Shown here one piece after another: positions 5,130-64,000 of a DNA stretch of 64,000 nt. Position numbers and translations under genes: made by a program. The stretch comes from Alphaproteobacteria bacterium (GTDB taxonomy: Bacteria; Pseudomonadota; Alphaproteobacteria; Micropepsales; Micropepsaceae), in contig JAJPHG010000007.1 of the NCBI GenBank assembly GCA_021325375.1, forward strand, positions 186,001 through 250,000. The letters are read 5' to 3'. A model generated the notes under the pieces. That model made no database searches, was not told the origin of the DNA, and saw only the letters and a list, made by a program, of their open reading frames with translations. Positions within the stretch are counted from its first letter, which is position 1, and each line of letters starts with the position of its first letter.

Positions 5130-6137
5130 TCAGGCGGCGGCGCGGTCCTCCCCGGGCGCGACATGGGCGAGGGCGTCGCGCAGCGTCTGCAGGTTCGCGC
5201 CGCGCAGGTTCGCGTTCTCGGCGATGTGGCGGCGGAACAGGCGCGCGCCGGGTCGTCCGTTGAACAGGCCCAGCATCGGCTTGGTCAGCCGGTTCAGCGC
5301 GACGCGCTGCGCCAGTTGCTCCGCCGCGTAATCGACATAGGCGCTCACGGCCGCATCGAACGACACCGCGCTCGCGCCGAAGAAGCGCGCATCGACATCG
5401 GCCAGCATCGCGGGCGAGTGATAGGCCGCGCGGCCCATCATCACGCCGTCGACATGGGCGAGATGCGTCTGCGCCTCATCGAGCGTATTGACGCCGCCGT
5501 TGAGGACGATCCTGAGCTTTGGGTGCTCCTGCTTCACCCGATAGACGAGCGCGTAGTCCAGCGGCGGCACGTCGCGGTTCTCCTTCGGCGACAGGCCCTC
5601 GAGCCACGCCTTGCGCGCATGGACGGCGAAGGTCTTCACGCCGGCGCGCGCACAAAGGCCGATGACGTCGCGCAGCGCTTCTTCCGGGTCCTGGTCGTCG
5701 ACGCCGATGCGGCATTTGACCGTCACCGGGATGGAGACCGCCGCGCGCATCGCGCCCACGCATTCCCCGACAAGCTCAGGCTCGCGCATCAGGCAGGCGC
5801 CGAAGCGCCCGGACTGCACGCGGTCCGACGGGCAGCCGACATTGAGGTTGATTTCGCTGTAGCCGAAATCCGCGCCGATCCTGGCGGCCTGCGCGAGCTT
5901 TGCAGGTTCCGATCCGCCGATCTGCAGCGCCACCGGATCTTCGCGGCGGTCGAAGCCCAGAAGCTTCTCGCGGTTGCCGCGCAGGATCGCGTCGGCCGTC
6001 ACCATCTCGGTATAGAGCAGCGCGTGGCGCGTGAGGCTGCGATGGAGGAACCGGCAATGCCGGTCCGTCCAGTCCATCATGGGTGCAATACAAAATGTAT
6101 GTGCTTGATTTCGTTGCATTATTCCGATACATTCCAA
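5130..6137 (-). CDS. dusA: tRNA-dihydrouridine(20/20a) synthase DusA
   Basis: FMN-dependent enzyme that reduces uridine to dihydrouridine in the tRNA D-loop. It shows the N-terminal signature IAPMMDWTDRHCR (residues 17-29), NVGCPSDRVQSG with the catalytic Cys, the phosphate- and tRNA-binding residues around KCRIGVDD, and NGGV. At 335 residues it has full DusA length. The ATG at 6137 gives this length; the ATG at 6119 (MQRNQ) is an equally good start. The gene is intact, although its 5' end is a known insertion site for mobile elements and an integrase gene diverges from it here. The first few codons and the promoter may therefore come from the element. Confidence 0.95.
   Translation of the reverse strand: MECIGIMQRNQAHTFCIAPMMDWTDRHCRFLHRSLTRHALLYTEMVTADAILRGNREKLLGFDRREDPVALQIGGSEPAKLAQAARIGADFGYSEINLNVGCPSDRVQSGRFGACLMREPELVGECVGAMRAAVSIPVTVKCRIGVDDQDPEEALRDVIGLCARAGVKTFAVHARKAWLEGLSPKENRDVPPLDYALVYRVKQEHPKLRIVLNGGVNTLDEAQTHLAHVDGVMMGRAAYHSPAMLADVDARFFGASAVSFDAAVSAYVDYAAEQLAQRVALNRLTKPMLGLFNGRPGARLFRRHIAENANLRGANLQTLRDALAHVAPGEDRAAA
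6051..6092 (-). other. candidate left attachment site in dusA 5' end
   Basis: This segment encodes the conserved DusA N-terminal motif around APMMDWTDRHCR. Integrases associated with dusA are known to recombine in this part of the gene and restore a full reading frame. The core cannot be delimited here because the matching direct repeat at the other end of the element should lie beyond base 64000. Confidence 0.4.
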
Positions 6138-6246
6138 GGGCTTAGACGGACGCCATCACACTTTTTCGTATCCGAAAATACGACGCTTTTCGCCACGTTT
6201 CGACGTCTGAGTGTGATGGATTTGTGATCGAAAACGGTGCTCAGCA
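6138..6246. promoter_or_regulatory. divergent dusA-int control region with nested inverted repeats
   Basis: The 109-base spacer between the divergent dusA and integrase genes holds a perfect 10-bp inverted repeat, CCATCACACT (6153-6162) and AGTGTGATGG (6210-6219), 47 bases apart. Inside it lies a small hairpin, CGTAT/ATACG (6167-6171 and 6178-6182). The position suits integrase arm sites, an excisionase or repressor operator, or overlapping promoters. The function is inferred from position only. Confidence 0.5.
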
Positions 6247-7308
6247 ATGGCCAACATTCGACAATTAGCATCTGGTCACTGGCAGGTCCAAATCCGCCTC
6301 AAAGGGCGCAGGGCGACAGAGACGTTTGTTCGCCGCGATCACGCGCGCGAGTGGGCAACCGAAGCAGAAGGCCAGGTCGATCGCGGACAGACACCGTCCG
6401 GTCGTCGCGCGCGGGGCGCGAAGACATTTGGCGCTCTGATCGACCTGCACGTCGACGATATGAAGGATGTCGGCAAACCACCTGGCCGATCCAAGAGCGC
6501 AACGCTTGATATGCTACAGCGCGAACTCGGCGCGCTCAGGATCGGGGAGTTGGACCGGGAGCGCCTTGTTCGGTTCGGTCGAGAGCGCGCAAAAAAGGGT
6601 GCGGGTCCAGTCACTCTGGGTCAGGACATCGGTGCAATTAAACTTGTCCTGTCGCACGCTGCGGCAGTGCATGGTGTAGAGGTAACAGTCGAGCCAGTGC
6701 AGCTGGCGCGCATCGCTCTCAAACGCCTTGGGTTGGTTGGGAAGAGCAATGAGCGGGATCGGCGGCCGACAGAGGACGAACTGATCAGGCTCTTTGGCCA
6801 TTTTGACTCTAACCCGCGCCAATTGATTCCGATGAGCCGGATCATCAAGTTCGCGATCGCAACCGCTATGCGCCAGGAAGAAATCTGTCGCGTGACGTGG
6901 AGCGACCTGAATTCGCGAACGAAGATGCTGACCATTCGGGACCGTAAGGATCCTCGGGAGAAGAAAGGCAACGACCAGCGAATTCCGCTGCTCGGAGTTT
7001 CAGGATACGACGCCCTTGCCCTGATCGAAGAGCAGCGGGCCACACGTGGGAATGAAGATGATCGGATTTTCCCGTACGTTCACAAGTCTGCGGGCACCGC
7101 ATTTACCCGAGCCATCAGAGACCTTGAGATCGAAGATCTGCACTTTCATGACCTGCGACATGAGGGAACGAGCCGCTTGTTCGAGGCAGGGTTTGCGATC
7201 CAGCAAGTCGCGCTTGTGACCGGCCACAAGGACTGGAAGATGCTGCGCCGTTATACGCATTTAAAGCCGGAGATGTTGCACGGCCTAGTGAATTCCAGAG
7301 CTGCCTAA
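6247..7308 (+). CDS. int: tyrosine-type site-specific integrase
   Basis: A 353-residue phage-type integrase that should catalyse integration and excision of the element at dusA. An N-terminal arm-binding region (about 1-55) and a core-binding domain (about 60-150) precede the catalytic domain, whose residues are all present: R209 (AMRQEE), K234, H301 and R304 (HDLRHEG), H327 (GHKDW) and the nucleophile Y336 (RRYTHL). It starts 109 bases from dusA in divergent orientation, which matches the dusA-associated integrase group. No excisionase gene is obvious nearby. The ATG at 6247 is the first good start. Confidence 0.95.
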   Translation: MANIRQLASGHWQVQIRLKGRRATETFVRRDHAREWATEAEGQVDRGQTPSGRRARGAKTFGALIDLHVDDMKDVGKPPGRSKSATLDMLQRELGALRIGELDRERLVRFGRERAKKGAGPVTLGQDIGAIKLVLSHAAAVHGVEVTVEPVQLARIALKRLGLVGKSNERDRRPTEDELIRLFGHFDSNPRQLIPMSRIIKFAIATAMRQEEICRVTWSDLNSRTKMLTIRDRKDPREKKGNDQRIPLLGVSGYDALALIEEQRATRGNEDDRIFPYVHKSAGTAFTRAIRDLEIEDLHFHDLRHEGTSRLFEAGFAIQQVALVTGHKDWKMLRRYTHLKPEMLHGLVNSRAA

Positions 7309-7543
7309 TCGCAAACGGGCGAATTGATCCCGAGACGCTATCGCTGCTGGATTGCCTCAGCGAGCCTTGCGCGCCGGGTGCTTCAGAATCTCGCCACGCC
7401 GAAGCGAGCAGGGAGATCGAGGGTACTTATCGGCGTTCATCCGAAGTTGGCGGTCTTGGATGAGGCGGACCTGAATCAATTCGATCAAAAGGGTCATTTC
7501 CTCCTACACGAGATAAGTTTGGCAAAGCCGCAAGGCAGCGCTC
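7309..7543. other. intergenic, nothing recognised
   Basis: The 235 bases between the integrase and the next plausible gene show only weak overlapping frames without recognisable protein sequence. No tRNA, clear terminator or repeat was seen. Confidence 0.4.
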
Positions 7544-8038
7544 GTGGCACAACCCACTAAATGGATTGCCGCCAGTGACAAGACCATGCTCAAGCAGATT
7601 CTCAATTTCGTGGAGTTGGGGTCTCTCGTCATCGGCGTGCTTGCGGTCTACTTCGCCGTTCGCAACAACACCCGCCAACTCGGGGCGCAGATTTTTCTAG
7701 CCTATTCGGACCGTGTATGGACGATCCGGCGCGCGGCGATATTCGACACCAGGAATTCCGAGACCTTTGCCGCCGCGGTATTTCTCGTCTTCGAGCTCTT
7801 CGAACTGAAGCGCCGGGGCTATGTATCGCGATCAATCTGGAGCATTTGGGACAACGACATTGCCGACCTATTCCGGAGCGACGCATTCCGCGAGCATTGG
7901 GCCGGCATCAGGCCGCGCTTGAAAAACCATCCGCACTTCCTGCGATGGGTCGACGGTCAATTGGATACCTCCAGGCGATCGGGCTCAGAAGCGGGAACGC
8001 CGGCTGTTCCTTCGCTCCGCCTTCAAGAGCCTGAATGA
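7544..8038 (+). CDS. hypothetical single-membrane-span protein
   Basis: A 164-residue protein I cannot assign to a family. It has one N-terminal membrane segment (about residues 22-40, ELGSLVIGVLAVYFAV) followed by a soluble region rich in aromatic and charged residues (SIWSIWDNDIADLF, HWAGIRPRLKNHPHF). The start is a GTG at 7544; an internal ATG at 7586, just before the membrane segment, is an alternative. It is a lone gene between the integrase and the acyl-CoA operon. Proteins of this shape (one TM plus a helical domain) are common in accessory DNA and usually uncharacterised. Confidence 0.6.
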   Translation: MAQPTKWIAASDKTMLKQILNFVELGSLVIGVLAVYFAVRNNTRQLGAQIFLAYSDRVWTIRRAAIFDTRNSETFAAAVFLVFELFELKRRGYVSRSIWSIWDNDIADLFRSDAFREHWAGIRPRLKNHPHFLRWVDGQLDTSRRSGSEAGTPAVPSLRLQEPE

Positions 8039-8103
8039 TCACCATCAAGAGGAGATTTTCCGCAATTCGTAAGGGGCCGTCGGCGCACGGTTTCCATGAG
8101 CGA

Positions 8104-8209
8104 CGCGAATAGCGACGAATCTGCAAGTCGGAGGAATTTCATCAAATAACTCAGTCCGTCGAACGGTTACGTTGCCGGCACATCAGATGGCGCATCCGCG
8201 AATAGCGAC
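8104..8209. repeat. 13-bp direct repeat upstream of acyl-CoA operon
   Basis: The sequence CGCGAATAGCGAC occurs at 8104-8116 and again at 8197-8209, the second copy ending 12 bases before the ATG of the acyl-CoA dehydrogenase gene. It may be a regulator binding site or the scar of a small duplication; the sequence does not decide. Confidence 0.45.
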
Positions 8210-8221
8210 ACGGAGATCGAA

Positions 8222-9430
8222 ATGGCTGCAGGCACGAAGAAGGACACCAAGCCGCTCCCGGCACCCAACAGCGACTTTTACCAGTTCGCCGAAACGCTGA
8301 TTCCGGAGGAGCGGGCGCTTCTGGACAAAGTGCGGACCTTCGCGGAGACCAAGATTGCGCCGATCGTCGACAAGTACTGGGCCGACGACGCGTTTCCGTT
8401 CGAACTCTTGCCGGCATTCAAGGAATTGAACATCGGCGGCCTCGGGCTCACCGGCTATGGCTGCACCGGCGGCAGCCAGAAGCTTTTCGGCCTCATTGCC
8501 ATGGAGTTCGCGCGCACCGACGCGTCCACATGCACCTTCTGGGGCGTACATGACGGCCTTGCCATGGGCTCGATCTATCTCGCCGGTTCGGAGGAACAGA
8601 AACAGAAGTGGCTCCCGCCGATGGCCCGGATGGAAAAGATCGGCTGCTTCGGCCTCACCGAGCCGCTGGTAGGCTCGGGCGCTGCCGGCGGCCTGACGAC
8701 CACTGCGACACGAGATGGAGACACGTGGATTCTGAACGGCCAAAAGAAGTGGATCGGCAACGCGCCGTGGTGCGATATCTCCATCATCTGGGCGCGCGAT
8801 GTCGCCGATAACCAGGTCAAAGGGTTCATCGTCGAGAACAAGACGACACCGGGCTTCAGCGTCGAAAAGATCGAGCACAAGATCTCCCTGAAGATCGTGC
8901 AGAACGGCCTCATCACGCTCGACAACTGCCGCATATCCGAAGCGAATCGGCTTCAAGAGGGCCATTCGTTTCGCGATACGGCGCGGGTGCTGCGTATGAC
9001 CCGCTACATGGTGGGTTGGGCGTCGACCGGCTGCCAGATGGGCGCTTACGAGGCTGCGCTGAGTTATGCGCAGCACCGCCTCCAGTTCGGCAAGCCGATC
9101 GCATCTTTCCAGCTCATCCAGGATATGCTCGCAAAGATGCTGGCCAACATCACGGCCTGCCAGTGCATGATGATGCGCCTCGCGCAGCTCGACGACGAAG
9201 GCAAGCTGCTGGACCATCACGCGTCTCTCGCGAAGTCGTTCTGCACCGCCAAGATGCGTGAAACCGTTTCGTGGGCCCGCGAGATGTGCGGCGCCAACGG
9301 TATCGTCGTCGACTACAAGGTCGCGCGCTTCTTTGCCGATGCCGAGGCGCTCTATTCCTACGAAGGCACCTTCCAGATGCAGAATCTGATCGTGGGCCGG
9401 GCCATCACCGGCTTCAGCGCTTTCGTCTGA
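8222..9430 (+). CDS. acyl-CoA dehydrogenase (GCDH/ACX4-like clade)
   Basis: A 402-residue flavoprotein that introduces the alpha-beta double bond in an acyl-CoA thioester, the first step of beta-oxidation-like breakdown. The FAD/acyl-CoA signature region (CFGLTEPLVGSGAAG, WILNGQKKWIGN) and the C-terminal helical domain are complete. The catalytic base is E381 in YSYEGTFQMQ, the position used by glutaryl-CoA dehydrogenase and plant short-chain acyl-CoA oxidase 4, to which the overall sequence looks closest. Whether oxygen or an electron-transfer flavoprotein is the acceptor cannot be told. A GGAG about 7 bases before the ATG supports the start. It is the first gene of a six-gene run to 14773. 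Confidence 0.92.
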   Translation: MAAGTKKDTKPLPAPNSDFYQFAETLIPEERALLDKVRTFAETKIAPIVDKYWADDAFPFELLPAFKELNIGGLGLTGYGCTGGSQKLFGLIAMEFARTDASTCTFWGVHDGLAMGSIYLAGSEEQKQKWLPPMARMEKIGCFGLTEPLVGSGAAGGLTTTATRDGDTWILNGQKKWIGNAPWCDISIIWARDVADNQVKGFIVENKTTPGFSVEKIEHKISLKIVQNGLITLDNCRISEANRLQEGHSFRDTARVLRMTRYMVGWASTGCQMGAYEAALSYAQHRLQFGKPIASFQLIQDMLAKMLANITACQCMMMRLAQLDDEGKLLDHHASLAKSFCTAKMRETVSWAREMCGANGIVVDYKVARFFADAEALYSYEGTFQMQNLIVGRAITGFSAFV

Positions 9431-9469
9431 GGGAAAGACAAGGTCCAACTCACCCATCGGAGTTCGCCA

Positions 9470-10276
9470 ATGGCCCCGGCCACAGAAACGAAACTGTCGC
9501 TCGAGAACGTGCTGTACGAGCAGCGGGGAGATATCGCCTATGTCACCGTGAACCGCCCGAAGGTGCTGAACGCGCTGAACTCAGCGACCTGGGCAGACCT
9601 CCTGGCAGCGTTCGAACAGGCGCGCTCCGACGCGAATGTCCGCGGCGTCATCCTGACCGGAGCTGGCGACAAGGCGTTTATCGCCGGCGCGGACATCGCC
9701 GAACTCGCCCACCTGTCCGCCGTTGAGGCCGAGCAATCGAGCCGGATCAGCCAGCAGGTGCTCGATCACATCGAAAATTTGGGAAAGCCGGTCGTTGCCG
9801 CGATCAAAGGTTTCGCCCTTGGCGGTGGCTGCGAGACGGCGCTTGCCTGCACGATCAGGATAGCAGTCGAGACCGCCAAGTTCGGACAGCCCGAAGTCAA
9901 ACTCGGCTTGTTGCCGGGTGGCGGTGGCACGCAACGCCTGCCGCGCTTGATCGGCAAGGGCCGCGCGCTCCAGCTCATCCTCACCGGCGGAATGATAGAC
10001 GCGCAGGAAGCGTATCGCATCGGACTCGTCAACGAGATCGTGTCCGCTGAGCTTCTCCTGCAACGGGCCGAAGCCATTCTCAAGACTATCGCTGCGAATG
10101 GTCCCGTAGCAGTCAGGTTCGCACTCTCCGCGGTGAACGAGGGACTGGAGACGAGCCAGAGCGAGGGCCTGGCGCTCGAGGCGGCCTATTTCGGGCTCTG
10201 CGCCGGTACCGAGGACAAGGCAGAGGGCACCAAAGCCTTCATCGAAAAGCGCGCGCCGCAGTTTCACGGGCGCTGA
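9470..10276 (+). CDS. enoyl-CoA hydratase/isomerase family protein
   Basis: Crotonase-fold enzyme, 268 residues, expected to hydrate the enoyl-CoA made by the preceding dehydrogenase. The oxyanion-hole glycines (FIAGADI near 70, ALGGGC near 117-121) and both general acid/base glutamates of true hydratases, E122 (GGGCE) and E142 (GQPE), are present, so hydratase activity is likely rather than isomerase or decarboxylase only. It lies 39 bases after the dehydrogenase stop and 26 before the CoA transferase, in the same operon. The chain length or ring specificity of the substrate is unknown. Confidence 0.92.
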   Translation: MAPATETKLSLENVLYEQRGDIAYVTVNRPKVLNALNSATWADLLAAFEQARSDANVRGVILTGAGDKAFIAGADIAELAHLSAVEAEQSSRISQQVLDHIENLGKPVVAAIKGFALGGGCETALACTIRIAVETAKFGQPEVKLGLLPGGGGTQRLPRLIGKGRALQLILTGGMIDAQEAYRIGLVNEIVSAELLLQRAEAILKTIAANGPVAVRFALSAVNEGLETSQSEGLALEAAYFGLCAGTEDKAEGTKAFIEKRAPQFHGR

Positions 10277-10302
10277 ACGTCCCACGTCGCAAGGAGACAG
10301 CA

Positions 10303-11526
10303 ATGGCAGACGACAACATTTTCTCGGGACTGAAGGTGGTGGACCTGGCGAGCTTCATCGCGGGTCCAAACGCGGCCGTGATGCTGTCCGATTTCGGCGC
10401 CGAGGTGATCAAGGTTGAACCGCCGAGCGGCGACCCGTGGAGGCACGGACATCAAATCCCGCCGCAGCCATTCTCCACCGATCCGTATCCCTGGCACATG
10501 AGCAACCGCAACAAGCGCGGCATGGCGCTCGATCTGAAATCTCCCGGCGCGCAGCAAGTGCTCGAGAAGCTGGTCAGATGGGCGGACGTGTTCATTGTCA
10601 ACACGCCACATCCGGCGCGCAAGAAGCTGAAGATCGAGTATGACGACGTCGCCCAGTGGAATCCGCGTCTCATCTATGCAGACCTCACGGGGTTCGGCGA
10701 AAAGGGACCGGATGCGGATCTTCCGGGGTTCGACATCACGTCCTATTGGGCGCGCAGCGGCATGCTCTCGATGACGCGCGACAAGGGGCAGCCGCCGACC
10801 TGGCCGGTCGCCGGCAGCGGCGACGCCGCGACGGCCGTTGGCTTGTACTCTGCGATCGTGACCGCCCTTTACCGTCGCGAACGTACCGGCAAGGGATCCT
10901 ATGTGACAACGTCCCTGCTTGCCGAAGGCGTCTGGGCCGCGAGCGTATCGATCCAGGGCGCGTTGTGCGGTGCGCATTTCTACGGGCTGCACGATCGCGA
11001 ACATCCGGCCAACGCAGCATTGAACGTGTATCGATCTGCCGATGGCGTCTGGTTCGTCCTGATCATCATGCCCGACAAGGTGGTGGCCATCGCGAAGGCG
11101 GTCGGTCGCACGGATCTTCTGACCGATCCCCGGTTCTCCGACCCGGCAAAGCTGAAGACGAACATGTCAGAGCTCGCCGCCATTCTTGAAAGCATCTTCG
11201 CCTCGCAACCGATGGCGCATTGGTATGAGGTGTTCAGCAAAATCCACGTGACATTCGGTGCCGTGCGGGATCCACTGGATGTCATCAACGATCCTCAGTT
11301 GCGGGCGAACGACATCATCGTTCCGCTCGAAGGCGCCGGCGAGAAACTGACCTCGACGATCAGCAGTCCGATCCAGGTCCATGGCGTGGCCAAGCAGCCT
11401 GCTAGGCGCGCGCCCGGCATTGGCGAGCACACCCAAGAAATCCTGAATCAGCTCGGATTCAGTGCAAGCGACGTCGATCGGTTGCGGGCCGCCGGCGTCA
11501 TTCCGAATGTAAGAACGGCTGCTTAG
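10303..11526 (+). CDS. CaiB/BaiF (family III) CoA transferase
   Basis: A 407-residue family III CoA transferase that moves CoA between carboxylic acids, so it could load the free acid substrate of this operon using another acyl-CoA as donor. The N-terminal core (GLKVVDLASFIAGPNAA, FGAEVIKVEPP) is typical. The catalytic aspartate that forms the acyl anhydride is D144 in PGFDITSYWARSG. An AAGGAG precedes the ATG by 6-8 bases. Its presence in place of an acyl-CoA ligase, and the lack of a thiolase nearby, point to a specialised acid rather than general fatty acids. The substrate is not known. Confidence 0.92.
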   Translation: MADDNIFSGLKVVDLASFIAGPNAAVMLSDFGAEVIKVEPPSGDPWRHGHQIPPQPFSTDPYPWHMSNRNKRGMALDLKSPGAQQVLEKLVRWADVFIVNTPHPARKKLKIEYDDVAQWNPRLIYADLTGFGEKGPDADLPGFDITSYWARSGMLSMTRDKGQPPTWPVAGSGDAATAVGLYSAIVTALYRRERTGKGSYVTTSLLAEGVWAASVSIQGALCGAHFYGLHDREHPANAALNVYRSADGVWFVLIIMPDKVVAIAKAVGRTDLLTDPRFSDPAKLKTNMSELAAILESIFASQPMAHWYEVFSKIHVTFGAVRDPLDVINDPQLRANDIIVPLEGAGEKLTSTISSPIQVHGVAKQPARRAPGIGEHTQEILNQLGFSASDVDRLRAAGVIPNVRTAA

Positions 11527-11604
11527 GCACGCGAGCAGGCGCATCGACAGCGAAGAGGCCGCGTACGGCAGCTCGTGCCGCGAAGCAAGGAAGGACGGCA
11601 ACCG

Positions 11605-12537
11605 ATGACATCGACAGGACCATGCGAGACTTCGACAGCCGGCAAGAAATGCGCCCGTCTGTTCTATCTCGACCTGAGCCAGGGGCGCATCTACGCGATT
11701 GACCGCAACGGATCGAACCGCGAAGTCATTGTCACCGACTGCCATCTACCGGACGGCATCGCCATCGACGTTGAGGCCGGACACATCTACTGGACCAACA
11801 TGGGCGTGCCGAGTCTGGACGATGGTTCGATCGAGCGAGCTGATCTCGACGGCAAAAATCGGAAAGTCATCGTACCGGTCGGTGTTACGCACACGCCGAA
11901 ACAGATCCATCTCGATCGCGAGAACGGCAAGCTCTATTGGTGCGACCGCGAGGGCATGCGTGTCATGCGGTCGAACCTCGATGGCTCCGTGGTGGAGATA
12001 TTGATCAAAACCGGCGAGGGCGCGAAAGACGCCCACGATCAGACGAAATGGTGCGTGGGGATCACGCTCGACCAAGCCTGCGGCCACATCTACTGGACCC
12101 AGAAGGGCCCGGACAACGCCGGTCTGGGACGAATCTATCGCGCCAATATAGATATCCCGAAGGGCGAGAAGGCCGATCGCCGCTCCGATATCGAAGTCTG
12201 GCTCGACAAGCTCCCCGAACCGATCGACCTGGAGCTCGATGTCGAAAGCCGTGTTCTCTATTGGACCGACCGCGGTGACCCGCCGCTGGGCAACACGGTC
12301 AATCGGCTGTCGATCGACGCGCAGGCGAACGCCCGTACGCCCGAGATCGTCTTCACGCATCTGATGGAAGGGATCGGCATCGCGCTCGATGCGCCCGGTA
12401 ACATGATGTTCATGACCGATCTCGCCGGCTCCGTATATGCGGCACGTCTCGATGGATCGCAGAAGAGCGTGCTGCAAGTCGCGCAAGGCAATCTGAGCGG
12501 CATCGCCTATGCCGAACTGCCGTCAAAGGAGAGATGA
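11605..12537 (+). CDS. YWTD (LDL-receptor class B-like) beta-propeller protein
   Basis: A 310-residue soluble beta-propeller made of repeats marked by YWTD-like strands: IYWTNMG, LYWCDREG, IYWTQKG and LYWTDRGD. No signal peptide is seen, so it should be cytosolic. The start at 11605 is preferred over 11575 because an AAGGAAGGA lies about 9 bases upstream. Family members have been described as SMP-30/lactonase-like or of unknown function. Its place between the CoA transferase and the 3-hydroxyacyl-CoA dehydrogenase (overlap ATGA at 12534-12537) suggests a role in this pathway, for instance lactone hydrolysis or substrate binding. No catalytic residues were identified. Confidence 0.8.
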   Translation: MTSTGPCETSTAGKKCARLFYLDLSQGRIYAIDRNGSNREVIVTDCHLPDGIAIDVEAGHIYWTNMGVPSLDDGSIERADLDGKNRKVIVPVGVTHTPKQIHLDRENGKLYWCDREGMRVMRSNLDGSVVEILIKTGEGAKDAHDQTKWCVGITLDQACGHIYWTQKGPDNAGLGRIYRANIDIPKGEKADRRSDIEVWLDKLPEPIDLELDVESRVLYWTDRGDPPLGNTVNRLSIDAQANARTPEIVFTHLMEGIGIALDAPGNMMFMTDLAGSVYAARLDGSQKSVLQVAQGNLSGIAYAELPSKER

Positions 12538-13481
12538 TCATGACGATCGACAAGCCCATCCAACAGGTATCCATCATCGGTACCGGCGTCATCGGCGCGA
12601 GCTGGGCCGCCCTCTTCCTCGCCAAGGGGCTGAAGGTTGTTGCGACCGATGTGGCGCCCAACGCCGAAATATCGTTGCGCAAGTTCGTCGACGACGCCTG
12701 GCCCGCTCTTGAGCAGCTGGGCCTTTCCGGTCACGGGTCCCAGTCGAATCTGAAGTTCACCGCAGCCCTCGCAAGCGCCGTTGAGGGCGCCGACCTGGTG
12801 CAGGAGAACGGTCCTGAAAAGATCGATTTCAAAAAGAAGCTCTACGGCCAGCTCGACGTGATGCTCCCGCCCGACGTGATCATTGCGTCGAGCTCCTCCG
12901 GCTTGACGATGAGCGAGATCCAATCCGGCTGCCCCAATCACCCGGAGCGCTGTGTCATCGGCCACCCTTTCAACCCTCCGCATTTGATCCCGCTGGTGGA
13001 GATTGTCGGCGGGGCAAAGACGTCCGAAGAAACGATCCTACGCGCGGAGAAGTTCTACACCGGCATCGGAAAACGCACCGTCAGGCTTCGCAAGGAGGTG
13101 CCCGGACACGTCGCGAACCGGCTGCAGGCCGCCCTGGCACGCGAGGTCTACCACCTCGTCGCCGACGATGTCGTCAGCGCTGCCGACGTCGATACGGCCC
13201 TTTGCTGGGGTCCGGGCTTGCGTTGGGGGATCATGGGGCAGCTTCTCCTCAATCACCTCGGCGGCGGCGAAGGCGGCATCGAGCACTTCTTCCACCAGTT
13301 CACCGGCCCGATGACCGCATGGTGGAAGGTGCTTGGCGCACCGGTCCTCACGCCCGAGGTGCAAGCGAAGCTCATCGCCGCCGTCTACGCAGAAGTCGGA
13401 TCGCGCTCGATCGACGAACTCGCGGCTGAGCGCGACAAGCTGTTGCTTGGTCTCTTGCGCCTGCGGGCAACCCAACCCTGA
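12534..13481 (+). CDS. 3-hydroxyacyl-CoA dehydrogenase family protein
   Basis: NAD-dependent dehydrogenase, 315 residues, with the Rossmann loop GTGVIGASW (16-24), the catalytic His in IGHPFNPP (H144), and the C-terminal helical domain with RLQAALAREVYHL and GLRWGIMG. This form is shared by 3-hydroxyacyl-CoA dehydrogenases, lambda-crystallin and carnitine 3-dehydrogenases, so the substrate may be a hydroxyacyl-CoA or a free hydroxy acid. The ATG at 12534 overlaps the previous stop; the ATG at 12540 is better spaced from the AAGGAGAG and may be the real start. In the pathway it would oxidise the product of the enoyl-CoA hydratase. Confidence 0.9.
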   Translation: MIMTIDKPIQQVSIIGTGVIGASWAALFLAKGLKVVATDVAPNAEISLRKFVDDAWPALEQLGLSGHGSQSNLKFTAALASAVEGADLVQENGPEKIDFKKKLYGQLDVMLPPDVIIASSSSGLTMSEIQSGCPNHPERCVIGHPFNPPHLIPLVEIVGGAKTSEETILRAEKFYTGIGKRTVRLRKEVPGHVANRLQAALAREVYHLVADDVVSAADVDTALCWGPGLRWGIMGQLLLNHLGGGEGGIEHFFHQFTGPMTAWWKVLGAPVLTPEVQAKLIAAVYAEVGSRSIDELAAERDKLLLGLLRLRATQP

Positions 13482-13489
13482 GGCGACCG

Positions 13490-14773: not shown

Positions 14774-15044
14774 CCGGCCAGCGATCCGACAACCCACGGG
14801 CTTCCGCGGCGACCCCGACGGAAGGCCGGGTAGTCGCGTTCGGCGCGGCTTGGGCGTCGGTCGTGCCTGCCGCGTTGACCGGTGAAGAGAGCGCCAGCGA
14901 CAGGCCGTCGCAAGGTGTATGGGATTCGAAAAAGGAAACGTCTCGGAACACCCAGCACTGAGCGACTGCGTTTCCCGGGAGTAGAAGCGCACCACCGCGC
15001 TGGAGGACACGACGATAACGATACAAAGGTAGGGAAAAGGTCGG

Positions 15045-15785: not shown

Positions 15786-15802
15786 CTCCGAGGAGACAGA
15801 AG

Positions 15803-16758: not shown

Positions 16759-16977
16759 GTCTGTGGCCACCGCTTGGTTGGTCGTGAGGTGGCCTTCCGA
16801 GACTCCATGACGGCAGATTCGTGCTTCGTCTGAAATTTCTTGGACAAACGGGTAGGCAAAAAGCACGGCTATGCAAGGCTTTGGGCGAGTGAGCGTTGTA
16901 TTCTGACAGATAGATGCCGGATGCCGTTAAGGCGTCGGCAATTGCGGGCTCCATGCAATAAACGTGTCCGCCAGGCA

Positions 16978-17637: not shown

Positions 17638-17782
17638 AGGACGCCTGTGCTGCGGTAACGATTCGGAAAATCAAGGCCGACGCACAACGGAGCCGGCCAG
17701 CTCAATCGGGAGCTTATGCCGCAAGCTCCTATCGGATGGTGGCCGTACCTGCGGTCGCGGCGCTTTGCAGATTCTATCCTTC

Positions 17783-17816: not shown

Positions 17817-17926
17817 CGTTTTCGGATGCCCATTGCGGGTGGCGGCGGTATAAATGCAGGGTCTTCCTGGCCCGTTGGATCAACCAATCGGCACTCACAT
17901 CCTTCGGGCGTTGCTTGGGCTCAACC

Positions 17927-23706: not shown

Positions 23707-23707
23707 G

Positions 23708-52357: not shown

Positions 52358-52368
52358 GATGGACTCCG

Positions 52369-56469: not shown

Positions 56470-56780
56470 GGATGCGATATCCGTTCGGAGTTGGTCGAGG
56501 AAACAGGTTTGGGATCGCCGGCGAAGAAGCGTCTACGGTTCTCCCGCCAGGCCATCGCGCAGTCCTGATCGTCTTGCGCACGGCTCCCCATTGTTTGACA
56601 GCGTGCAAGATCGCGGGAGAGCTCATCGCTCGACTCAGTACCGAGCTTGATGTTTGCTGGCTGTGGGGGCCGCGTACTGTGCCGGTCGAGATAGATCGCG
56701 CCGGCGACGATCGCACCCGCCACGGCGAGATAGCCGAGAACCGGCAGCACGCAGCCCCAATTGATCACACGGCCGCGCAT
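56466..56780 (-). CDS. putative entry exclusion protein TrbK-alt
   Basis: A 104-residue protein with one N-terminal membrane span (VLPVLGYLAVAGAIVAGAIY) and the alternative TrbK signature LARCQTMG, then DCAMAWRENRRRFF. It sits between trbJ and trbL, where entry exclusion proteins lie, and should block redundant transfer into cells that already carry the element. The ATG at 56780 overlaps the trbJ stop. The longer frame to 57116 overlaps trbJ and is not used. Confidence 0.86.
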   Translation of the reverse strand: MRGRVINWGCVLPVLGYLAVAGAIVAGAIYLDRHSTRPPQPANIKLGTESSDELSRDLARCQTMGSRAQDDQDCAMAWRENRRRFFAGDPKPVSSTNSERISHP

Positions 56781-57544
56781 CAGTGGAACATCTGCGCGTT
56801 GCCGGGCTGGTAGCCAGCACCGTAGTTGAGGAACTGCGTCGTCTGGGTTTGTGCCTGTTCCTGGGCTTCCACGGTTCGCGCGCCGTCCAGACTTTGCGCC
56901 CGCGCGATTGCCGTCATTACGGCGGTGAGATCCGCCAGTTGCTTGGTCAGCAGGGCGAGAAGCTGGTTGCCGGACTGGGCGGCCTGCAACGCTCCAACAG
57001 ATGACTGGCTGACATTCACCAACGCATCGATCTGGCTGTGCGTGCTTTGGAGATTCTGCACGACGCCGGCCTGCACCCGCATCGCATCCTGATAGGCGGC
57101 GAGCGCGTTCTGCCAACGGGATTGCGCGTCGGTGAGAAGCTGCTGCGACGAGGTCGATCCCGAGTACGTCGTAGGGTAGGTCGTCGCGAACGTGTTGTTG
57201 ATCGAGCTGACATCATAGGAGATGCGTTGCGCTTGTCCGAGCAGCGACGTCGTCTGTGTGATCGACTGGTCGATCGAACTCAACGACGAGAAGTTCAGAT
57301 TGCTGAGATTGCGCGCCTGATTGATGAGCGATGTCGCCTGGTTCTGCAGCATCGTCAGTTCATTGGTGACCTGCTGCAGCTCGCGCGCAGCGGTGAGGAC
57401 ATTCTGCGCGTAGATGCTGGGATCGAAGACGATGTCGCCGCCGAAGAATTGGGCCTTGGCAGGCACCACAGCGAGCAGCGCAACGGTGACGCCGGCAAGC
57501 AGCGCATTGCGGATGCGATGATGGGAAATGCGACGCATAGTCAT
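56780..57544 (-). CDS. trbJ: conjugal transfer protein TrbJ (VirB5-like)
   Basis: A 254-residue secreted protein with a clear signal peptide (ALLAGVTVALLAVVPAKA) followed by long Gln/Ser-rich helices (ELTMLQNQATSLINQARNLS). It corresponds to VirB5, the pilus-tip or adhesin component. The ATG at 57544 has AGGAGGTTG in front and overlaps the trbE stop; the extra codons up to 57607 are rejected. Confidence 0.93.
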   Translation of the reverse strand: MTMRRISHHRIRNALLAGVTVALLAVVPAKAQFFGGDIVFDPSIYAQNVLTAARELQQVTNELTMLQNQATSLINQARNLSNLNFSSLSSIDQSITQTTSLLGQAQRISYDVSSINNTFATTYPTTYSGSTSSQQLLTDAQSRWQNALAAYQDAMRVQAGVVQNLQSTHSQIDALVNVSQSSVGALQAAQSGNQLLALLTKQLADLTAVMTAIARAQSLDGARTVEAQEQAQTQTTQFLNYGAGYQPGNAQMFH

Positions 57545-59970
57545 GTGACAACCTCCTTCTGGAAAAGCATGGGGAGAGCCCAATCGAGGCCCCTGTGACG
57601 TAGCCACGCGGCAGCGAAGCCGGCGCGACCGTGTTCGGCGAAGATCTTGGCGATGGCCGTCTGATCGGTTTTGGACGACGCTGCGGTCAAGGCGAGCGCG
57701 ACCTCGGATAGACCGAGCTCAAAGAGCCGGTTGCCGCGGCGTGACTGGCAGTAATAGTCGCGCTTGGGAGTCGCGCGTGCGAGGATCTCGATCTGGCGGT
57801 CGTTGAGTCCGAAGCGGCGATAGATGGCCGCGATCTGCGGTTCGAGGGCGCGCTCGTTGGGAAGAAGAATCCGCGTCGGGCAGCTCTCGATGATTGCTGG
57901 CGCGATAGCCGAGCCATCGATGTCGGCCAGCGACTGCGTGGCGAAGATGACGCTCGCGTTCTTCTTGCGTAGCGTCTTCAGCCATTCACGAAGCTGATCG
58001 GCGAAGCCGCGATCGTCCAGCGCGAGCCAACCTTCGTCGATGATGAGAAGTGTTGGGCGCCCGTCGAGGCGGTCACCGATCCGGTGAAACAGATAGGACA
58101 GCACGGCCGGCGCCGCGCCCGCGCCTATCAATCCTTCGGTCTCGAACGCTTGCACCTCGGCGGTGCCCAGATGTTCGAACTCGCCGTCCAGCAATCGACC
58201 CCAGGGACCGCCGACCGTGTAAGGTTGAAGCGCCTGTTTTAGGGCGTTGGACTGCAGAAGCACGGACAGTCCAGTCAACGTGCGCTCTGCCGCGGGTGCC
58301 GAGGCCAGCGAACTTAGCGCTGACCAGATGTGCTCCTTGAGCTCGGGCGTGACGGTAACGGACTCACGCGCCAGGATTGCCGCGACCCATTCGGCCGCCC
58401 AGGCGCGTTCGCCCGGATCGTTGGCAAACGCCAAGGGCTGAAGCGACACGGGCTCGGAGACATCCTCGGCCAGCGCGCCGCCGAGATCGTGCCAGTCGCC
58501 GCCCATGGCGAGCGCCGCGGCGCGAATGGATCCACCGAAATCAAAGGCGAAAACCTGCGCTCCCGCATAGCGGCGGAACTGCAGTGCCATCAGCGCCAAC
58601 AACACGCTCTTGCCGGCGCCCGTCGGTCCGACGATCAGGGTATGCCCGACATCGCCGACATGCAGGCTGAAGCGGAACGGTGTCGATCCTTCGGTCCGCG
58701 CGAAGAACAACGGTGGCGCGCCGAGATGCTCATCCCGTGCCGGGCCCGCCCATACCGCGGAAAACGGCATCATATGCGCCAGGTTCAACGTCGAAACGGG
58801 CGGCTGGCGGACATTGGCATAGACGTGCCCGGGCAAGCTGCCCAACCAGGCTTCGACCGCATTCACACTCTCGCGAATACATGTGAAGTCGCGGCCCTGG
58901 ATGGCTTTCTCGACAAGGCGCAAGCGGTCTTCAGCGATGCGCGGGTCGTCGTCCCAAACCGTGACGGTGGCGGTGACATAGACTTCGCCGACCAGATCGG
59001 AGCCCAGTTCCTGCAGTGCGAGGTCCGCATCGAGCGCCTTGTTCGAGGCGTCGGAATCCATCAGTACCGAGGCTTCGTTGGTCATCACCTCCTTGAGGAT
59101 CGCCATGATCGATTTGCGCTTGGCGAACCATTGGCGGCGAATCTTGGCGAGTACCCTGGTGGCATCGGTCTTGTCGAGGCAGATCGCCCGCGTCGTCCAG
59201 CGATAGGGAAAAGCGAGCCGGTTGAGATCATCGAGCAGGCCGGGCCAAGTCTGCGACGGAAATCCCATCACGGTGAGCGCACGCAGATGCGCCGAACCCA
59301 GTCGCGGCTCGAGACCGCCGGCGAGTTCCTGATCGGCCAGGATCGCGTCGAGATACATCGGCACCTCGGGCACGCGCACGCGCTGGTGCTTGGTCGAGAT
59401 GCAAGAGTGCAGATAGGTGAGCGTGCCGACATCGTCGAGCCAACCCGCTTCCGGCATGAAGCCTTCGACCAGCGCCAAGACGCGATCTGTGCGATCGACA
59501 AAGCCGATCAGAGCTGTGCGCCAGTCGGCGCCTTGATTGGCACGCCCTTCGTAAAGCCAATTCTCAGCCCGGGCGGCATCTTCGGCCGGTGGCAACCAGA
59601 CCAAGGTGAGGAAATACCGGCTCTCGAAATGCGTGCCTTCTTCCTCGAACTGTGCACGGCGTTCTTCGTCGACCAGACGCGAGACGGGATCGGGAAATTG
59701 GCTCTGGGGATAGCGGTTGGCAGGATCGCGCTGCGCTTCGACAAAGATTGCCCAACCCGAGCCGAGACGGCGCAGCGCATTATTCAGCCGCGATGTGATA
59801 GCGACGAGCTCGGCTGGTGTGGCGCTATCGAGGTCCGGACCTCGAAACTTCGCGGTGCGCTGGAACGATCCGTCCTTGTTGAGAACGACACCTTTGGCGA
59901 CGAGCGCGACCCAGGGCAGGAAATCGGCGAGCCGCTGGGAGCGTGGGCGGTATTCGGAGAGGTTCAGCAT
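57541..59970 (-). CDS. trbE: conjugal transfer ATPase TrbE (VirB4-like)
   Basis: An 809-residue VirB4-family ATPase that powers assembly and transport of the mating channel. Walker A is VGPTGAGKSVLLAL, Walker B is LLIIDEGWLAL, and the N-terminal CagE/TrbE domain starts LNLSEYRPRSQRLADFLPWV. The length matches other TrbE proteins (about 810-850). It is followed directly by trbJ and preceded after 10 bases by trbD. Confidence 0.95.
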   Translation of the reverse strand: MLNLSEYRPRSQRLADFLPWVALVAKGVVLNKDGSFQRTAKFRGPDLDSATPAELVAITSRLNNALRRLGSGWAIFVEAQRDPANRYPQSQFPDPVSRLVDEERRAQFEEEGTHFESRYFLTLVWLPPAEDAARAENWLYEGRANQGADWRTALIGFVDRTDRVLALVEGFMPEAGWLDDVGTLTYLHSCISTKHQRVRVPEVPMYLDAILADQELAGGLEPRLGSAHLRALTVMGFPSQTWPGLLDDLNRLAFPYRWTTRAICLDKTDATRVLAKIRRQWFAKRKSIMAILKEVMTNEASVLMDSDASNKALDADLALQELGSDLVGEVYVTATVTVWDDDPRIAEDRLRLVEKAIQGRDFTCIRESVNAVEAWLGSLPGHVYANVRQPPVSTLNLAHMMPFSAVWAGPARDEHLGAPPLFFARTEGSTPFRFSLHVGDVGHTLIVGPTGAGKSVLLALMALQFRRYAGAQVFAFDFGGSIRAAALAMGGDWHDLGGALAEDVSEPVSLQPLAFANDPGERAWAAEWVAAILARESVTVTPELKEHIWSALSSLASAPAAERTLTGLSVLLQSNALKQALQPYTVGGPWGRLLDGEFEHLGTAEVQAFETEGLIGAGAAPAVLSYLFHRIGDRLDGRPTLLIIDEGWLALDDRGFADQLREWLKTLRKKNASVIFATQSLADIDGSAIAPAIIESCPTRILLPNERALEPQIAAIYRRFGLNDRQIEILARATPKRDYYCQSRRGNRLFELGLSEVALALTAASSKTDQTAIAKIFAEHGRAGFAAAWLRHRGLDWALPMLFQKEVVT

Positions 59971-59980: not shown

Positions 59981-60250
59981 TCACGCGATCAGATGCGCGG
60001 GATAGCGCAGATGACGGCGCACCACATCGACGAATTCCGGATCGCGTTTGGCCGCCCACACCGCCGCCAGATGTCCGACGAGCCAGAGCACGGCGCCTAC
60101 GATCCAGAGCCGGAGGCCGAGCCCGACTGCCGCCGCCAGCGTCCCGTTCAGGATTGCGACCGCGCGCGGTGCGCCACCCAACAAAATCGCTTCCGTCAGC
60201 GCGCGATGGACTGGCGCATAGAAGCCGGACACGGGTTCGTCGGTGAGCAT
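59981..60250 (-). CDS. trbD: conjugal transfer protein TrbD (VirB3-like)
   Basis: An 89-residue inner membrane protein with two adjoining hydrophobic segments (ILNGTLAAAVGLGLRLWIVGA region). It has the TrbD pattern GFYAPVHRALTEAILLGGAPR at the start and RRHLRYP near the end. Its ATG at 60250 overlaps the trbC stop (ATGA). VirB3-like proteins work with the TrbE ATPase in pilus assembly. Confidence 0.91.
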   Translation of the reverse strand: MLTDEPVSGFYAPVHRALTEAILLGGAPRAVAILNGTLAAAVGLGLRLWIVGAVLWLVGHLAAVWAAKRDPEFVDVVRRHLRYPAHLIA

Positions 60251-60579
60251 CAGACAAGCGCTCCGCCGCCGAACTGGAAAAAGGTCAGGAAGAAGCTCGA
60301 CGCGGCGAACGCGATCGAGAGACCGAACACGATCTGGATCAATCTGCGAAAGCCGCCACTCGTCTCGCCGAACGCGAGCGTCAGGCCGGTCACGATGATA
60401 ACGATCACCGAGACGACCTTGGCAACGGGACCCTGGATGGAATCCAGAATTTGCTGGAGAGGCTGCTCCCACGGCATGTTTGTGCCGGCGGCGTGGGCGG
60501 GTGCCGTCATCAACGCGAAGGCTGCAAATGTCGCGGCGGCAAATAGCCGTGCGCGTATCCGGTGAAATGTCGAGCTCAT
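60250..60579 (-). CDS. trbC: conjugal transfer pilin TrbC (VirB2-like)
   Basis: A 109-residue pilin precursor: signal peptide ending APAHA, then a short mature peptide with two membrane helices (VAKVVSVIVIIVTGLTLAF and RLIQIVFGLSIAFAASSFFLTFF). The mature part would be the pilus subunit. It overlaps both trbB (4 bases) and trbD. Confidence 0.92.
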   Translation of the reverse strand: MSSTFHRIRARLFAAATFAAFALMTAPAHAAGTNMPWEQPLQQILDSIQGPVAKVVSVIVIIVTGLTLAFGETSGGFRRLIQIVFGLSIAFAASSFFLTFFQFGGGALV

Positions 60580-61544
60580 GCGTGTTCTCCTGCTGGGGTG
60601 AGGCGGTAATCGCCGCCTGCGTCGAGGCCTTCGACACAGGCGAGTTCGGAGAGGTGACGGGCAGAGCCGCGGCCAGCGAGAACGGCGATTACGTCGATGG
60701 TTTCGGCGATGAGCGCACGGGGCACGGTGACGACGGCTTCCTGGATCAGCTGCTCCAGCCGGCGCAGCGCGCCGATGGCGGAGCCTGCGTGCAGGGTGCC
60801 GACGCCGCCGGGATGGCCGGTGCCCCAGGCTTTCAGGAGATCGAGAGCTTCCGCACCGCGCACTTCGCCAATGGGTATGCGATCGGGCCGCAAGCGCAGC
60901 GACGAGCGCACCAGGTCCGACAACGAGGCCGCGCCGTCTTTCGTGCGCAAGGCAACGAGGTTGGACGAGGCACATTGCAGTTCGCGCGTATCTTCGATGA
61001 GCACGATCCGGTCGGAGGTTTTTGCGATTTCGGCGAGGAGCGCGTTGACGAGCGTTGTTTTGCCGGTCGAGGTGCCGCCTGCGACGAGTACGTTCTTGCG
61101 AGTTGCAACCGCTGTCCGAAGGAAGTCCGCCTGGCCGGCGGTTATGATTCCAGCTTCGACGTAATCTGCGAGCGTGAACACCGCGACAGCCGGACGGCGG
61201 ATGGCGAAGCACGGCGCCATCACGACGGGAGGAATGAGACCTTCGAAGCGCTCACCCGTCTCGGGCAATTCCGCCGAGACACGCGGGGCGCCAGCGTGAA
61301 CTTCCACGCCGACATGATGAGCGACCAGGCGGACGATGCGTTCGGCATCCATCGGCGGAATGCGCACGGCGGTATCTTCGAGGCCGCCCGACAGACGATC
61401 GATCCAGAGGCGTCCATCCGGATTGAGCATCACCTCCACGATGGAGGAGTCTTCGAGGAATCCCGCGATGGCCGGACCAAGCGCGGTGCGCAGCATGCGC
61501 GTGCTGCGGGTTCTGGTCTCAGCTCGGAAGGATTGTACGTTCAC
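60576..61544 (-). CDS. trbB: conjugal transfer ATPase TrbB (VirB11-like)
   Basis: A 322-residue secretion ATPase of the VirB11/GspE group with Walker [17 protein letters not shown], an Asp box ([12 protein letters not shown]), Walker B ([13 protein letters not shown]) and a His box ([12 protein letters not shown]). It forms the hexameric cytoplasmic motor. A GTG at 61544 with GGGGTC ahead is taken as the start; a TTG at 61556 is possible. It is the first gene of the trb run proper. Confidence 0.95.
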
Positions 61545-61789: not shown

Positions 61790-62221
61790 TCAGTCTTTTG
61801 AGGGAGATGTCTCGGCAGATGCTTCGATTTCACGAGTGATTTCGTCGAGCAACGTCTGGCCGTGGGCCAGCCGACGACCAACCGCCTCGATGAAACCCTC
61901 GTAGCGTTCGCGGCCCTTTGCCTGCGCTGCCTTTTGTGCGGTGTCGGGCAACGGTGGGGTGTGCGTCAGCCAGAAGCGGATGAACAGGGCGAGCGTTTCG
62001 TTCGTGATCGCCGAATGGCGTTCCAGCCGCTCGATTGCGCGGCTCATGCGATCAAGCCGCTTAGCCAAAGCGGCCTCAAGTCGGTCGGCGCCGTCTGGCG
62101 ACAGAAACGAATCCAGCGCGACTTCCACGATCTGCACGCGCGACACCCGCTTGGCCGTTGCGTAGTCGTCTAGCCGGGCCGCGAGTTCATTGGGCAAGCG
62201 GAATGTGTGGTTGCCGCGCAT
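61790..62221 (-). CDS. CopG/ribbon-helix-helix family protein
   Basis: A 143-residue protein with an N-terminal ribbon-helix-helix DNA-binding unit (NHTFRLPNELAARLDDYA, RVSRVQIVEVALDSFL) and a helical C-terminal part (RLDRMSRAIERLERHSAITNE). A CopG-type gene between traG and trbB is standard in these elements and may autoregulate the transfer genes or act at the origin of transfer. It lies 3 bases after the traG stop. Confidence 0.87.
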   Translation of the reverse strand: MRGNHTFRLPNELAARLDDYATAKRVSRVQIVEVALDSFLSPDGADRLEAALAKRLDRMSRAIERLERHSAITNETLALFIRFWLTHTPPLPDTAQKAAQAKGRERYEGFIEAVGRRLAHGQTLLDEITREIEASAETSPSKD

Positions 62222-62224
62222 AAA

Positions 62225-64000
62225 TCACATACCGAGACGGTCGGCGGGATCGAGCGGCGTCTGCCGCACGGAGTTACGAACCTGCTGATCGAAACCCGGT
62301 TGGATCGGCGGCCCTGTATCGTCATTGGCGTCATCCAGCTCGAACTCCTGGGCAGGATCTGGCGGCGTTGGTGCGATGTCTTCGTGCTCGGGTAGCTCCG
62401 GCTCGCGCCTTGGCCCGCCATTGGCGGGATCGGCCTCAGTGTCTGAGCTTGGTGCCGCGATCAGATGCACCCAGGCGCCAGCTGTGGGTCCGTTGGGCAA
62501 GGATGGATTGGGGCGCGAAGCGCCAAGCGTCGGCAGCCGGGGCGGAGGAAGAATGCGCTCGTTCAAGCGCCGATCCTGGAAATAGCGAACCTTCTTGGCC
62601 CGTATCGGTGGACAACCCGATATCAGGACAATTTCATCGGATGTCGGAAGCTGCATGATCTCGCCGGCCGTCAGCAATGGTCGGGCGGTTTCCTGTCGCG
62701 ATACCATCAAATGGCCCAGCCACGGACTGAGACGATGCCCGGCATAGTTCTTCATCGCGCGCAACTCGGTGGCGACGCCAAGCGCATCGGAGACGCGCTT
62801 TGCCGTGCGCTCGTCGTTGGTCGCGAAGCTCACGCGCACATGACAATTATCGAGAATGGAATTGTTCTGCCCATAGGCTTTCTCGATCTGATTGAGGGAC
62901 TGCGCGATCAGAAAGGATTTGAGGCCATATCCCGCCATGAACGACAGGGTCGACTCGAAGAAATCCAGCCGACCCAGCGCGGGAAATTCATCAAGCATCA
63001 GGAGCAAGCGGTGCTTGCGTCTGTCGGATTCGAGTTCTTCCGTAAGGCGCCGCCCGATCTGGTTGAGGATCAGGCGGATCAGCGGCTTAGTCCTCGAAAT
63101 GTCGGACGGCGGCACCACGAGATAGAGCGTTAGCGGTCTGTCGCTCTCTACGAGATCAGCGATGCGCCAATCGCATTGCCGGGTAACCTTCGCAACGACG
63201 GGATCGCGATAGAGGCCCAGGAAGCTCATGGCGGTGGAAAGCACGCCCGATCTTTCATTCTCCGATTTGTTGAGCAGTTCGCGCGCTGCGCTCGCGACGA
63301 CGGGATGAACACCCCCATGACCCAGATGCGGCGTGTTCATCATTGCCCAAAGGGTCTTTTCGATGGTGCGCCGCGGGTCGGATAGGAAGTTGGCGACCCC
63401 GGCCAGTGTTTTGTCCTCCTCGGCGTAAAGAACGTGCAGGATCGTGCCAACGAGCAGAGCGTGACTGGTCTTTTCCCAGTGGTTTCGTCTCTCCAAGGCG
63501 CCTTCGGGATCGACAAGCACGTCTGCGATATTCTGTACGTCGCGTACTTCGCGCTCACCGCGGCGAACTTCCATCAATGGATTGTAGGCGGTACTTGCGG
63601 TGTTGGTGGGGTCGAACAGCAGCACGCGGCCGAAACGCGCGCGCCAGCCCGCGGTCAGAGTCCAATTCTCACCCTTGATGTCGTGCACGATAGCCGAGCC
63701 CGGCCAAGTCAGAAGCGTCGGAATCACGAGACCGACACCCTTGCCGCTCCTGGTCGGCGCGAAACACAGAACGTGTTCGGGACCGTCGTGGCGCAGATAG
63801 CTTCCTTGCCAGCGGCCTAGCATTACGCCGTCGGGATGTAGCAAATCCGCGCCGCGGACTTCCTGAGCCGTCGCCCAACGCGCAGACCCATAGGTGATCG
63901 CGTGCTTTGCTTCACGGGCGCGCCATACCGACATGGCGATTGCGACGGCGAAGGCTGCGATGCCACCCGCGCCGGCGATATATCCACCTTCGACAAAAAT
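62225..64000 (-). CDS. traG: type IV coupling protein TraG (VirD4-like), 5' end outside window
   Basis: Coupling ATPase that brings the relaxase-DNA complex to the Trb channel. Walker A is APTRSGKGVGLVIPTLL, Walker B is LLLMLDEFPALGRLDFF, and the C-terminus carries an acidic Pro-rich tail. The 569-residue piece from an ATG at 63934 is not the full protein: the frame stays open to base 64000, adding a hydrophobic stretch (GAGGIAAFAVAIA) that should be part of the N-terminal membrane anchor. About 60-90 residues are probably missing. Confidence 0.94.
   Translation of the reverse strand: MFVEGGYIAGAGGIAAFAVAIAMSVWRAREAKHAITYGSARWATAQEVRGADLLHPDGVMLGRWQGSYLRHDGPEHVLCFAPTRSGKGVGLVIPTLLTWPGSAIVHDIKGENWTLTAGWRARFGRVLLFDPTNTASTAYNPLMEVRRGEREVRDVQNIADVLVDPEGALERRNHWEKTSHALLVGTILHVLYAEEDKTLAGVANFLSDPRRTIEKTLWAMMNTPHLGHGGVHPVVASAARELLNKSENERSGVLSTAMSFLGLYRDPVVAKVTRQCDWRIADLVESDRPLTLYLVVPPSDISRTKPLIRLILNQIGRRLTEELESDRRKHRLLLMLDEFPALGRLDFFESTLSFMAGYGLKSFLIAQSLNQIEKAYGQNNSILDNCHVRVSFATNDERTAKRVSDALGVATELRAMKNYAGHRLSPWLGHLMVSRQETARPLLTAGEIMQLPTSDEIVLISGCPPIRAKKVRYFQDRRLNERILPPPRLPTLGASRPNPSLPNGPTAGAWVHLIAAPSSDTEADPANGGPRREPELPEHEDIAPTPPDPAQEFELDDANDDTGPPIQPGFDQQVRNSVRQTPLDPADRLGM

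Follow-up and report, generated by a model that had tools for sequence, protein, structure and literature searches.

Genomic islands specific for dusA and equipped with DAI integrases have been described as elements whose integrase gene adjoins the dusA 5′ end; their direct repeats are short and semiconserved, the native dusA start is displaced and replaced by an island-supplied one, and the cargo is very variable. They average 42.6 kb (4.8–184.8 kb) and about half of them are prophages (PMC4482086). Six DAI phages are named in that paper, DC1, mEp460 and H66 among them, and shufflon-type recombinases are given there as the closest relatives. The same target gene is used by Vibrio islands that are mobilizable by IncC plasmids (PMC8409611), and the trb/RlxS integrative and conjugative elements (ICEs) of Mesorhizobium that resemble ICEMlSymR7A include nonsymbiotic ones beside dusA (PMC8627217). 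In the latter, the region between rdfS and traF encodes a Rep_3 initiator and DUF2840 (PMC8627217). For the roles of FseA, QseM and RdfS we follow PMC10359603 and PMC11963761.

The locus described here shares the listed traits of the dusA-specific islands, from the position of the integrase to the variable cargo, but measures 119.8 kb and carries a trb system; whereas the Vibrio islands are mobilizable by IncC plasmids, it encodes transfer genes of its own. It resembles the ICEMlSymR7A-type ICEs in its trb genes, traG, RlxS-like relaxase, transglycosylase, traF-like S26 peptidase, RdfS-like HTH_17 protein, DUF2840, DUF736 and DUF2285 proteins reminiscent of FseA/QseM, and differs from them in its genus, its cargo and the presence of a Shedu-like gene and a short-pAgo/TIR pair; no counterpart of the Rep_3 initiator of the non-symbiotic Mesorhizobium ICEs was found here among the core proteins g53–g71 (g68 partly scanned). 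Both kinds of element have been published, the dusA islands (PMC4482086) as well as trb/RlxS ICEs, some of them located at dusA in Mesorhizobium (PMC8627217); what is new is a large member. A literature search combining Rhizomicrobium with integrative and conjugative element found none, which says little.

Boundaries and architecture of the element

The window, that is, the whole analysed stretch of 64,000 nucleotides (C35:186,001–250,000), contains only the left half of the element. The original prediction treated the 58 kb that follow dusA as one ICE with its right end past base 64,000, and a repeat of the dusA sequence does lie there: 20 identical bases recur 119,829 bp downstream of the left copy, at position 125,890 on the window scale, which we continue beyond 64,000. 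The search covered the whole assembly (4,766,043 bases, 45 contigs). A 24-base pattern from the dusA 5′ end, with up to three mismatches allowed, matched this 4.77-Mb sequence twice on the same (+) strand, perfectly at C35:192,060 and with two mismatches at C35:311,889, and reversed-pattern controls of the same search gave no match in the whole assembly. A 27-base version of the pattern occurred once in the window and never in 100 shuffles. Pattern search and alignment together set the span between the two matching 20-base direct repeats at 119,829 bp, with a GC content of 60.3%, compared with 65.6% in each flank (6.1 kb on the left, 8.1 kb on the right). We are highly confident that this is one element in the 5′ end of dusA, a predicted ICE whose left half is the window and in which a conserved conjugation core separates a 44-kb cargo bay from one of 42 kb (Table 1).

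Table 1. Features of the dusA-borne element in order along the contig (positions above 64,000 on the window scale)
Feature	Position	Strand	Basis or remark
dusA, with a 5′ end supplied by the element (MQRNQAHTFCIAPMMDW...)	5130..6119	-	native start MSHKFCVAPMMDW... displaced to attR
attL core CGGTCCGTCCAGTCCATCAT	6061..6080	+	20 bases identical to attR
dusA-type tyrosine integrase	6247..7308	+	353 aa, divergent from dusA; Phage_integrase, 83.9 bits
Cargo bay 1, 44 kb	7309..51247		domain scans
Bay 1: acyl-CoA/CoA-transferase operon	8222-14773		
Bay 1: DUF1275, ferritin-like and OsmC genes			listed after the acyl-CoA/CoA-transferase operon
Bay 1: efflux genes OEP, FUSC, HlyD	19328-23703		
Bay 1: acetoacetate decarboxylase-like gene			listed between efflux and sensor kinase genes
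Bay 1: sensor kinase and response regulator	27899-31623		
Bay 1: COX1/2/3-type oxidase genes	about 31652-35493		ORF 31652-32056 outside the scan
Bay 1: regulators with STAND-type ATPase domains; patatin			
Bay 1: aldehyde-dehydrogenase-like ORF	44614-46062		named from the alignment of 44,834-45,574 to the C42 copy of Pfam-named g96
Bay 1: PQQ dehydrogenase	47367-49721		
LysR regulator	51248..52135	+	borders trb operon also in G010, G007, G061 (47-61% identity)
DUF2274	52112..52372	-	domain scan
trbI	52369..53556	-	best model, 218 of 386 bits, below cut-off
trbG	53553..54530	-	over NCBIfam cut-off
trbF	54530..55210	-	position and order in congeners
trbL	55213..56469	-	over NCBIfam cut-off
trbK-alt	56466..56780	-	position only
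trbJ	56780..57544	-	position and order in congeners
trbE	57541..59970	-	1501.7 bits; NCBIfam cut-off 1020
trbD and trbC	59981..60579	-	position and order in congeners
trbB	60576..61496	-	over NCBIfam cut-off
CopG-type ORF (name from the original prediction)	61790..62221	-	position and order in congeners
traG coupling protein	62225..64000, start at 64,210	-	Pfam
Shedu SduA-like protein	64,373-65,656		between traG and relaxase; Pfam; PADLOC 598.5 bits
ORF without family			between SduA-like gene and relaxase
RlxS-like relaxase	67,180-68,967		DUF3363 306.5 bits; RlxS 586.8 bits, NCBIfam cut-off 850
Transglycosylase (SLT), TraF-like S26 peptidase (Peptidase_S26), DUF2840, HTH_17 (RdfS-like)			in this order after the relaxase
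FseA-like overlapping ORF pair	71,570-72,347		AFEFLRRN-motif ORF overlaps DUF2285 (RovC_DNA-bd) ORF, +1 frame
Lone DUF2285 ORF (QseM-like), HTH_3, DUF736, YAcAr, DUF7146/Toprim, Strawberry-notch helicase, ParB-like			in this order after the FseA-like pair
Cargo bay 2, 42 kb	84,249-125,889		domain scans, about ten small ORFs left out
Bay 2: TIR protein beside short pAgo	84,998-87,975 (G000:C35:270,998-273,975)		PADLOC TIR-PNTD and pAgo_I, 463 and 652 bits
Bay 2: ECF-type sigma factor, zf-HC2 protein, GTP cyclohydrolase I, cytochrome b561, CopD			
Bay 2: aldehyde dehydrogenase, hydrolases, TPP enzyme, peroxidase, LysR regulators			
attR core, same 20 bases	125,890-125,909 (G000:C35:311,890-311,909)	+	repeat of attL

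Integrase, dusA and the insert-free locus

As had been read from the window, dusA is intact, an uninterrupted minus-strand ORF ending at 5130. Its mechanical start, TTG 6137, leaves the stated 109 bases to the divergent integrase ATG at 6247; the likelier start is ATG 6119, which reads MQRNQAHTFCIAPMMDW and is supplied by the element. The integrase gene adjoins the dusA 5′ end, as in DAI elements, and its catalytic residues (R209, K234, H301, R304, H327 and Y336) are all in place, in agreement with the call of a complete enzyme. Among the best 80 of 234 homologous loci in genome records, 74 show this arrangement, with the integrase divergent beside dusA and the core, counted at up to three mismatches, 171–206 bp from the integrase start; three of the six exceptions (L023, L027, L051, L053, L073 and L077) end near or inside the integrase. 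Within the genus, 12 of 69 genomes, our own included, match the integrase at E 1e-30, that of G006 weakly, at only 31–33% identity. The phage relatives among the matches listed (30 of 363) include Burkholderia phage DC1 (38.0%), Enterobacteria phage mEp460 (37.3%) and Pseudomonas phage H66 (37.0%), and the top match among these 30 is a protein of Marinobacter phage PS6 (41.4%) annotated as a shufflon-specific recombinase.

The displaced native start of dusA, MSHKFCVAPMMDWTD, read back from the far copy, is present at attR and, when joined to the dusA body, yields an uninterrupted DusA N-terminus. The joined flanks, queried against 60 genus genomes (own included), matched 56 of them, most matches stopping within the dusA 5′ region, which alone is no proof of an empty site. 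Comparison of flank genes in 11 fetched dusA loci did provide a congener lacking the insert: in G054 both flanks adjoin, in the order g114, g113, g112, g111, g110, dusA, g6, g5, g4, g3, g1. There, g110 and dusA are 932 bp apart, and g109 and g2 were not found. No right-flank gene was found beside dusA in the other 10 loci, six of which have the left-flank genes g6 and g1. The insert-free state is thus seen in one genome, G054, and the displaced start independently supports it.

Four of the 11 fetched loci (L146, L149, L154 and L155, from G038, G046, G021 and G048) encode DusA N-termini of the MQQ... or MHINQ... type, which are close to the element-supplied start and less like the MSHKFC type; other dusA elements may reside at these loci.

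Conjugation and regulatory core

A complete trb operon with copG and traG had been proposed for the right part of the window. TrbG, TrbL, TrbE, TrbB, DUF2274 and TraG are confirmed by models, whereas TrbI scores under its cut-off and TrbF, TrbJ, TrbD, TrbC, trbK-alt and copG are named from position or gene order. The adjoining LysR gene is counted as core and not as cargo because G010, G007 and G061 likewise have it next to their trb operons. The relaxase expected beyond the window is encoded 3 kb past base 64,000 by an RlxS-like DUF3363 gene. The expectation of replication and partition genes there held in part: a ParB-like protein is encoded, its ParB_N match lying below the Pfam cut-off, but neither Rep_3 or another replication initiator nor ParA was found among the core proteins g53–g71 (g68 scanned in part). 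In G061, traG and the relaxase gene are about 100 bp apart, whereas here the SduA-like gene lies between them.

Genes were called heuristically, with some small ORFs missed, and all core genes except the FseA-like pair are single ORFs by this caller. The layout of that pair recurs in three congeners (G010, G007 and G061), the DUF2285 frame starting A-L-P-(S/T) and lying +1 relative to the upstream ORF, and the pair probably yields a +1 frameshift product. The RdfS-like label is based on the HTH_17 domain and position.

The order of the core block is kept in G010, G007 and G061 and partly in G032. G010 matches the order dusA, integrase, LysR, trb, traG, relaxase, DUF736 and has the same integrase type (85%) and core, with a different bay 1 of 17 kb that has no match to ours. 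The core of G061 is 60–100% identical to ours at the protein level, and no match to the dusA integrase was found in that genome at E 1e-30. Collectively, these comparisons point to modular swapping. Upstream of the G061 core there is a tRNA-Gln with a PF00589 match at C8:34,664; this tRNA was considered as the integration site, but no second copy of its 3′ end was found in C8:1-100,000. Among the homologous integrase loci (best 80 of 234), trb genes lie 2.1–4.3 kb from the integrase start in four (L029, L030, L046 and L074), and g60-like, that is, RdfS-like, proteins are encoded in 13. The notion that RdfS tracks the integrase was dropped, since g60-like proteins also occur in the cores of genomes with no match to that integrase (84% in G061, 81% in G007).

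Cargo and its sources

The roles of cargo genes are read as domain names only. The TIR protein and short prokaryotic Argonaute of bay 2 lie side by side and form a pair of the kind called SPARTA. Bay 1 contains inverted repeats formed by two AraC-type genes (17,958-18,866 and 49,764-50,690) that are 77–84% alike and 31–32 kb apart. Three large regulators combine Trans_reg_C with a STAND-type ATPase domain (25,769-27,253; 38,984-41,824; window-scale 112,141-114,969), and the ORF at 35,901-38,750, outside the domain scan, resembles them by appearance.

Parts of the cargo are also found in relatives. The operon g10–g15 is colinear with G028:C1:444,046-450,502 at 74–76% DNA identity, and the 36 kb around that locus (418–454 kb) also contain the efflux, oxidase and regulator modules, arranged differently. 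The PF00589 match nearest to this cluster (E 1e-5) is at 605,785, the sole TrbE match in G028 is at 662,755, and the dusA integrase has no match there at E 1e-30. Cargo modules thus cluster in a relative with no match to that integrase, which in part is the observation that the original prediction had set against a single element; it does not refute the element here because the att repeats bracket all of the cargo, and it bears instead on cargo origin. In G016, the oxidase and efflux modules lie together on C15. That contig has relaxase-like matches as well, from 332,362 onward, and C17 has an integrase match (62%), so that the modules may stand in a mobile context.

A 16.4-kb efflux and oxidase query matched 31 of the 69 genus genomes (own included), mostly through its COX1 part. 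A 15.5-kb query from the right part of bay 1 matched 5 of 69 at E 1e-40 (own included), with short stretches only outside this element. The g12 protein was matched at E 1e-100 in four of the 69 genomes, or three besides our own, and the g10–g15 operon is therefore not part of the genus core. The bay-2 query matched all 69 (own included), mostly over a short stretch at the GTP cyclohydrolase gene.

A second copy of cargo is present in the genome itself: the bay-2 block g83–g97 (window-scale 100,012-111,421) is colinear, in inverted orientation, with G000:C42:17,092-27,586. The first 5 kb align at about 79% DNA identity, locally reaching 88%; the middle aligns poorly, and 108,973-111,421 is 93.7% identical. 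Near 109,000, identity jumps from about 61% to 93%. The PF00589 matches on C42 are at 163 and 171 kb.

Discussion

The gene content suggests how such an element could move. The integrase would recombine attP with attB in dusA, and the element would supply a new 5′ end so that an intact DusA is still encoded. The FseA-like activator, a probable +1 frameshift product that the QseM-like protein would restrain, would turn on the RdfS-like excisionase, which together with the integrase would excise a circle; RlxS would nick the excised circle, and one strand would leave the cell through TraG and the Trb type IV system. The element is likely mobile between cells by conjugation.

Alternatively, the cargo might be ordinary chromosome, with only a small island at dusA and, unconnected with it, a trb region nearby. 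Colinearity of g10–g15 in G028 and the clustering of modules there without an integrase match speak in its favour, but in this genome attL and an attR with the displaced dusA start enclose all of it, the flank genes are together without the cargo in G054, and g12 is matched in just three of the other 68 genus genomes (E 1e-100). We consider this explanation contradicted by the attR with the displaced start and the G054 locus, and give it hardly any weight. The different contents of the two bays could also reflect at least two elements that piled up at dusA and later came to share one outer pair of ends, and accretion has been suggested by the authors of PMC4482086 for some dusA islands. Against this, the 24-base att pattern occurs just twice in the genome at up to three mismatches, the dusA integrase is the only PF00589 match of the genome that falls between the repeats (serine recombinases and transposases being outside that search), and the order of the core block is kept in G010, G007, G061 and partly G032, which leaves accretion improbable.

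Slightly less improbable, though still unlikely, is an immobile fossil of an ICE: mobility is predicted from sequence, and no replication initiator was found among g53–g71. Yet the catalytic residues of the integrase are complete, the core genes, bar the FseA-like pair, are single ORFs in an order shared with congeners, and the att cores are identical over 20 bp, all of which speaks against a fossil.

Modules from the chromosomes of congeners were probably brought together to form the cargo of the element, and the bay-2 block has perhaps undergone recent exchange with the resident C42 copy; the identity step near 109,000 is as expected if element and chromosome recombined recently. Far more tentatively, and with the odds rather against it, the element might act as a genus-internal gene shuttle, acquiring blocks from the chromosomes of its host genus through homologous recombination and passing them on to other strains as divergent second copies.

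What had been a guess from half of an element has become a bounded element whose two ends and relaxase gene are located and for which a reference locus lacking the insert is available. The core of G061 without a match to the dusA integrase, and the integrase and core of G010 with another bay 1, point to modular swapping, and the duplicated chromosomal block makes the origin of ICE cargo testable within one genus.
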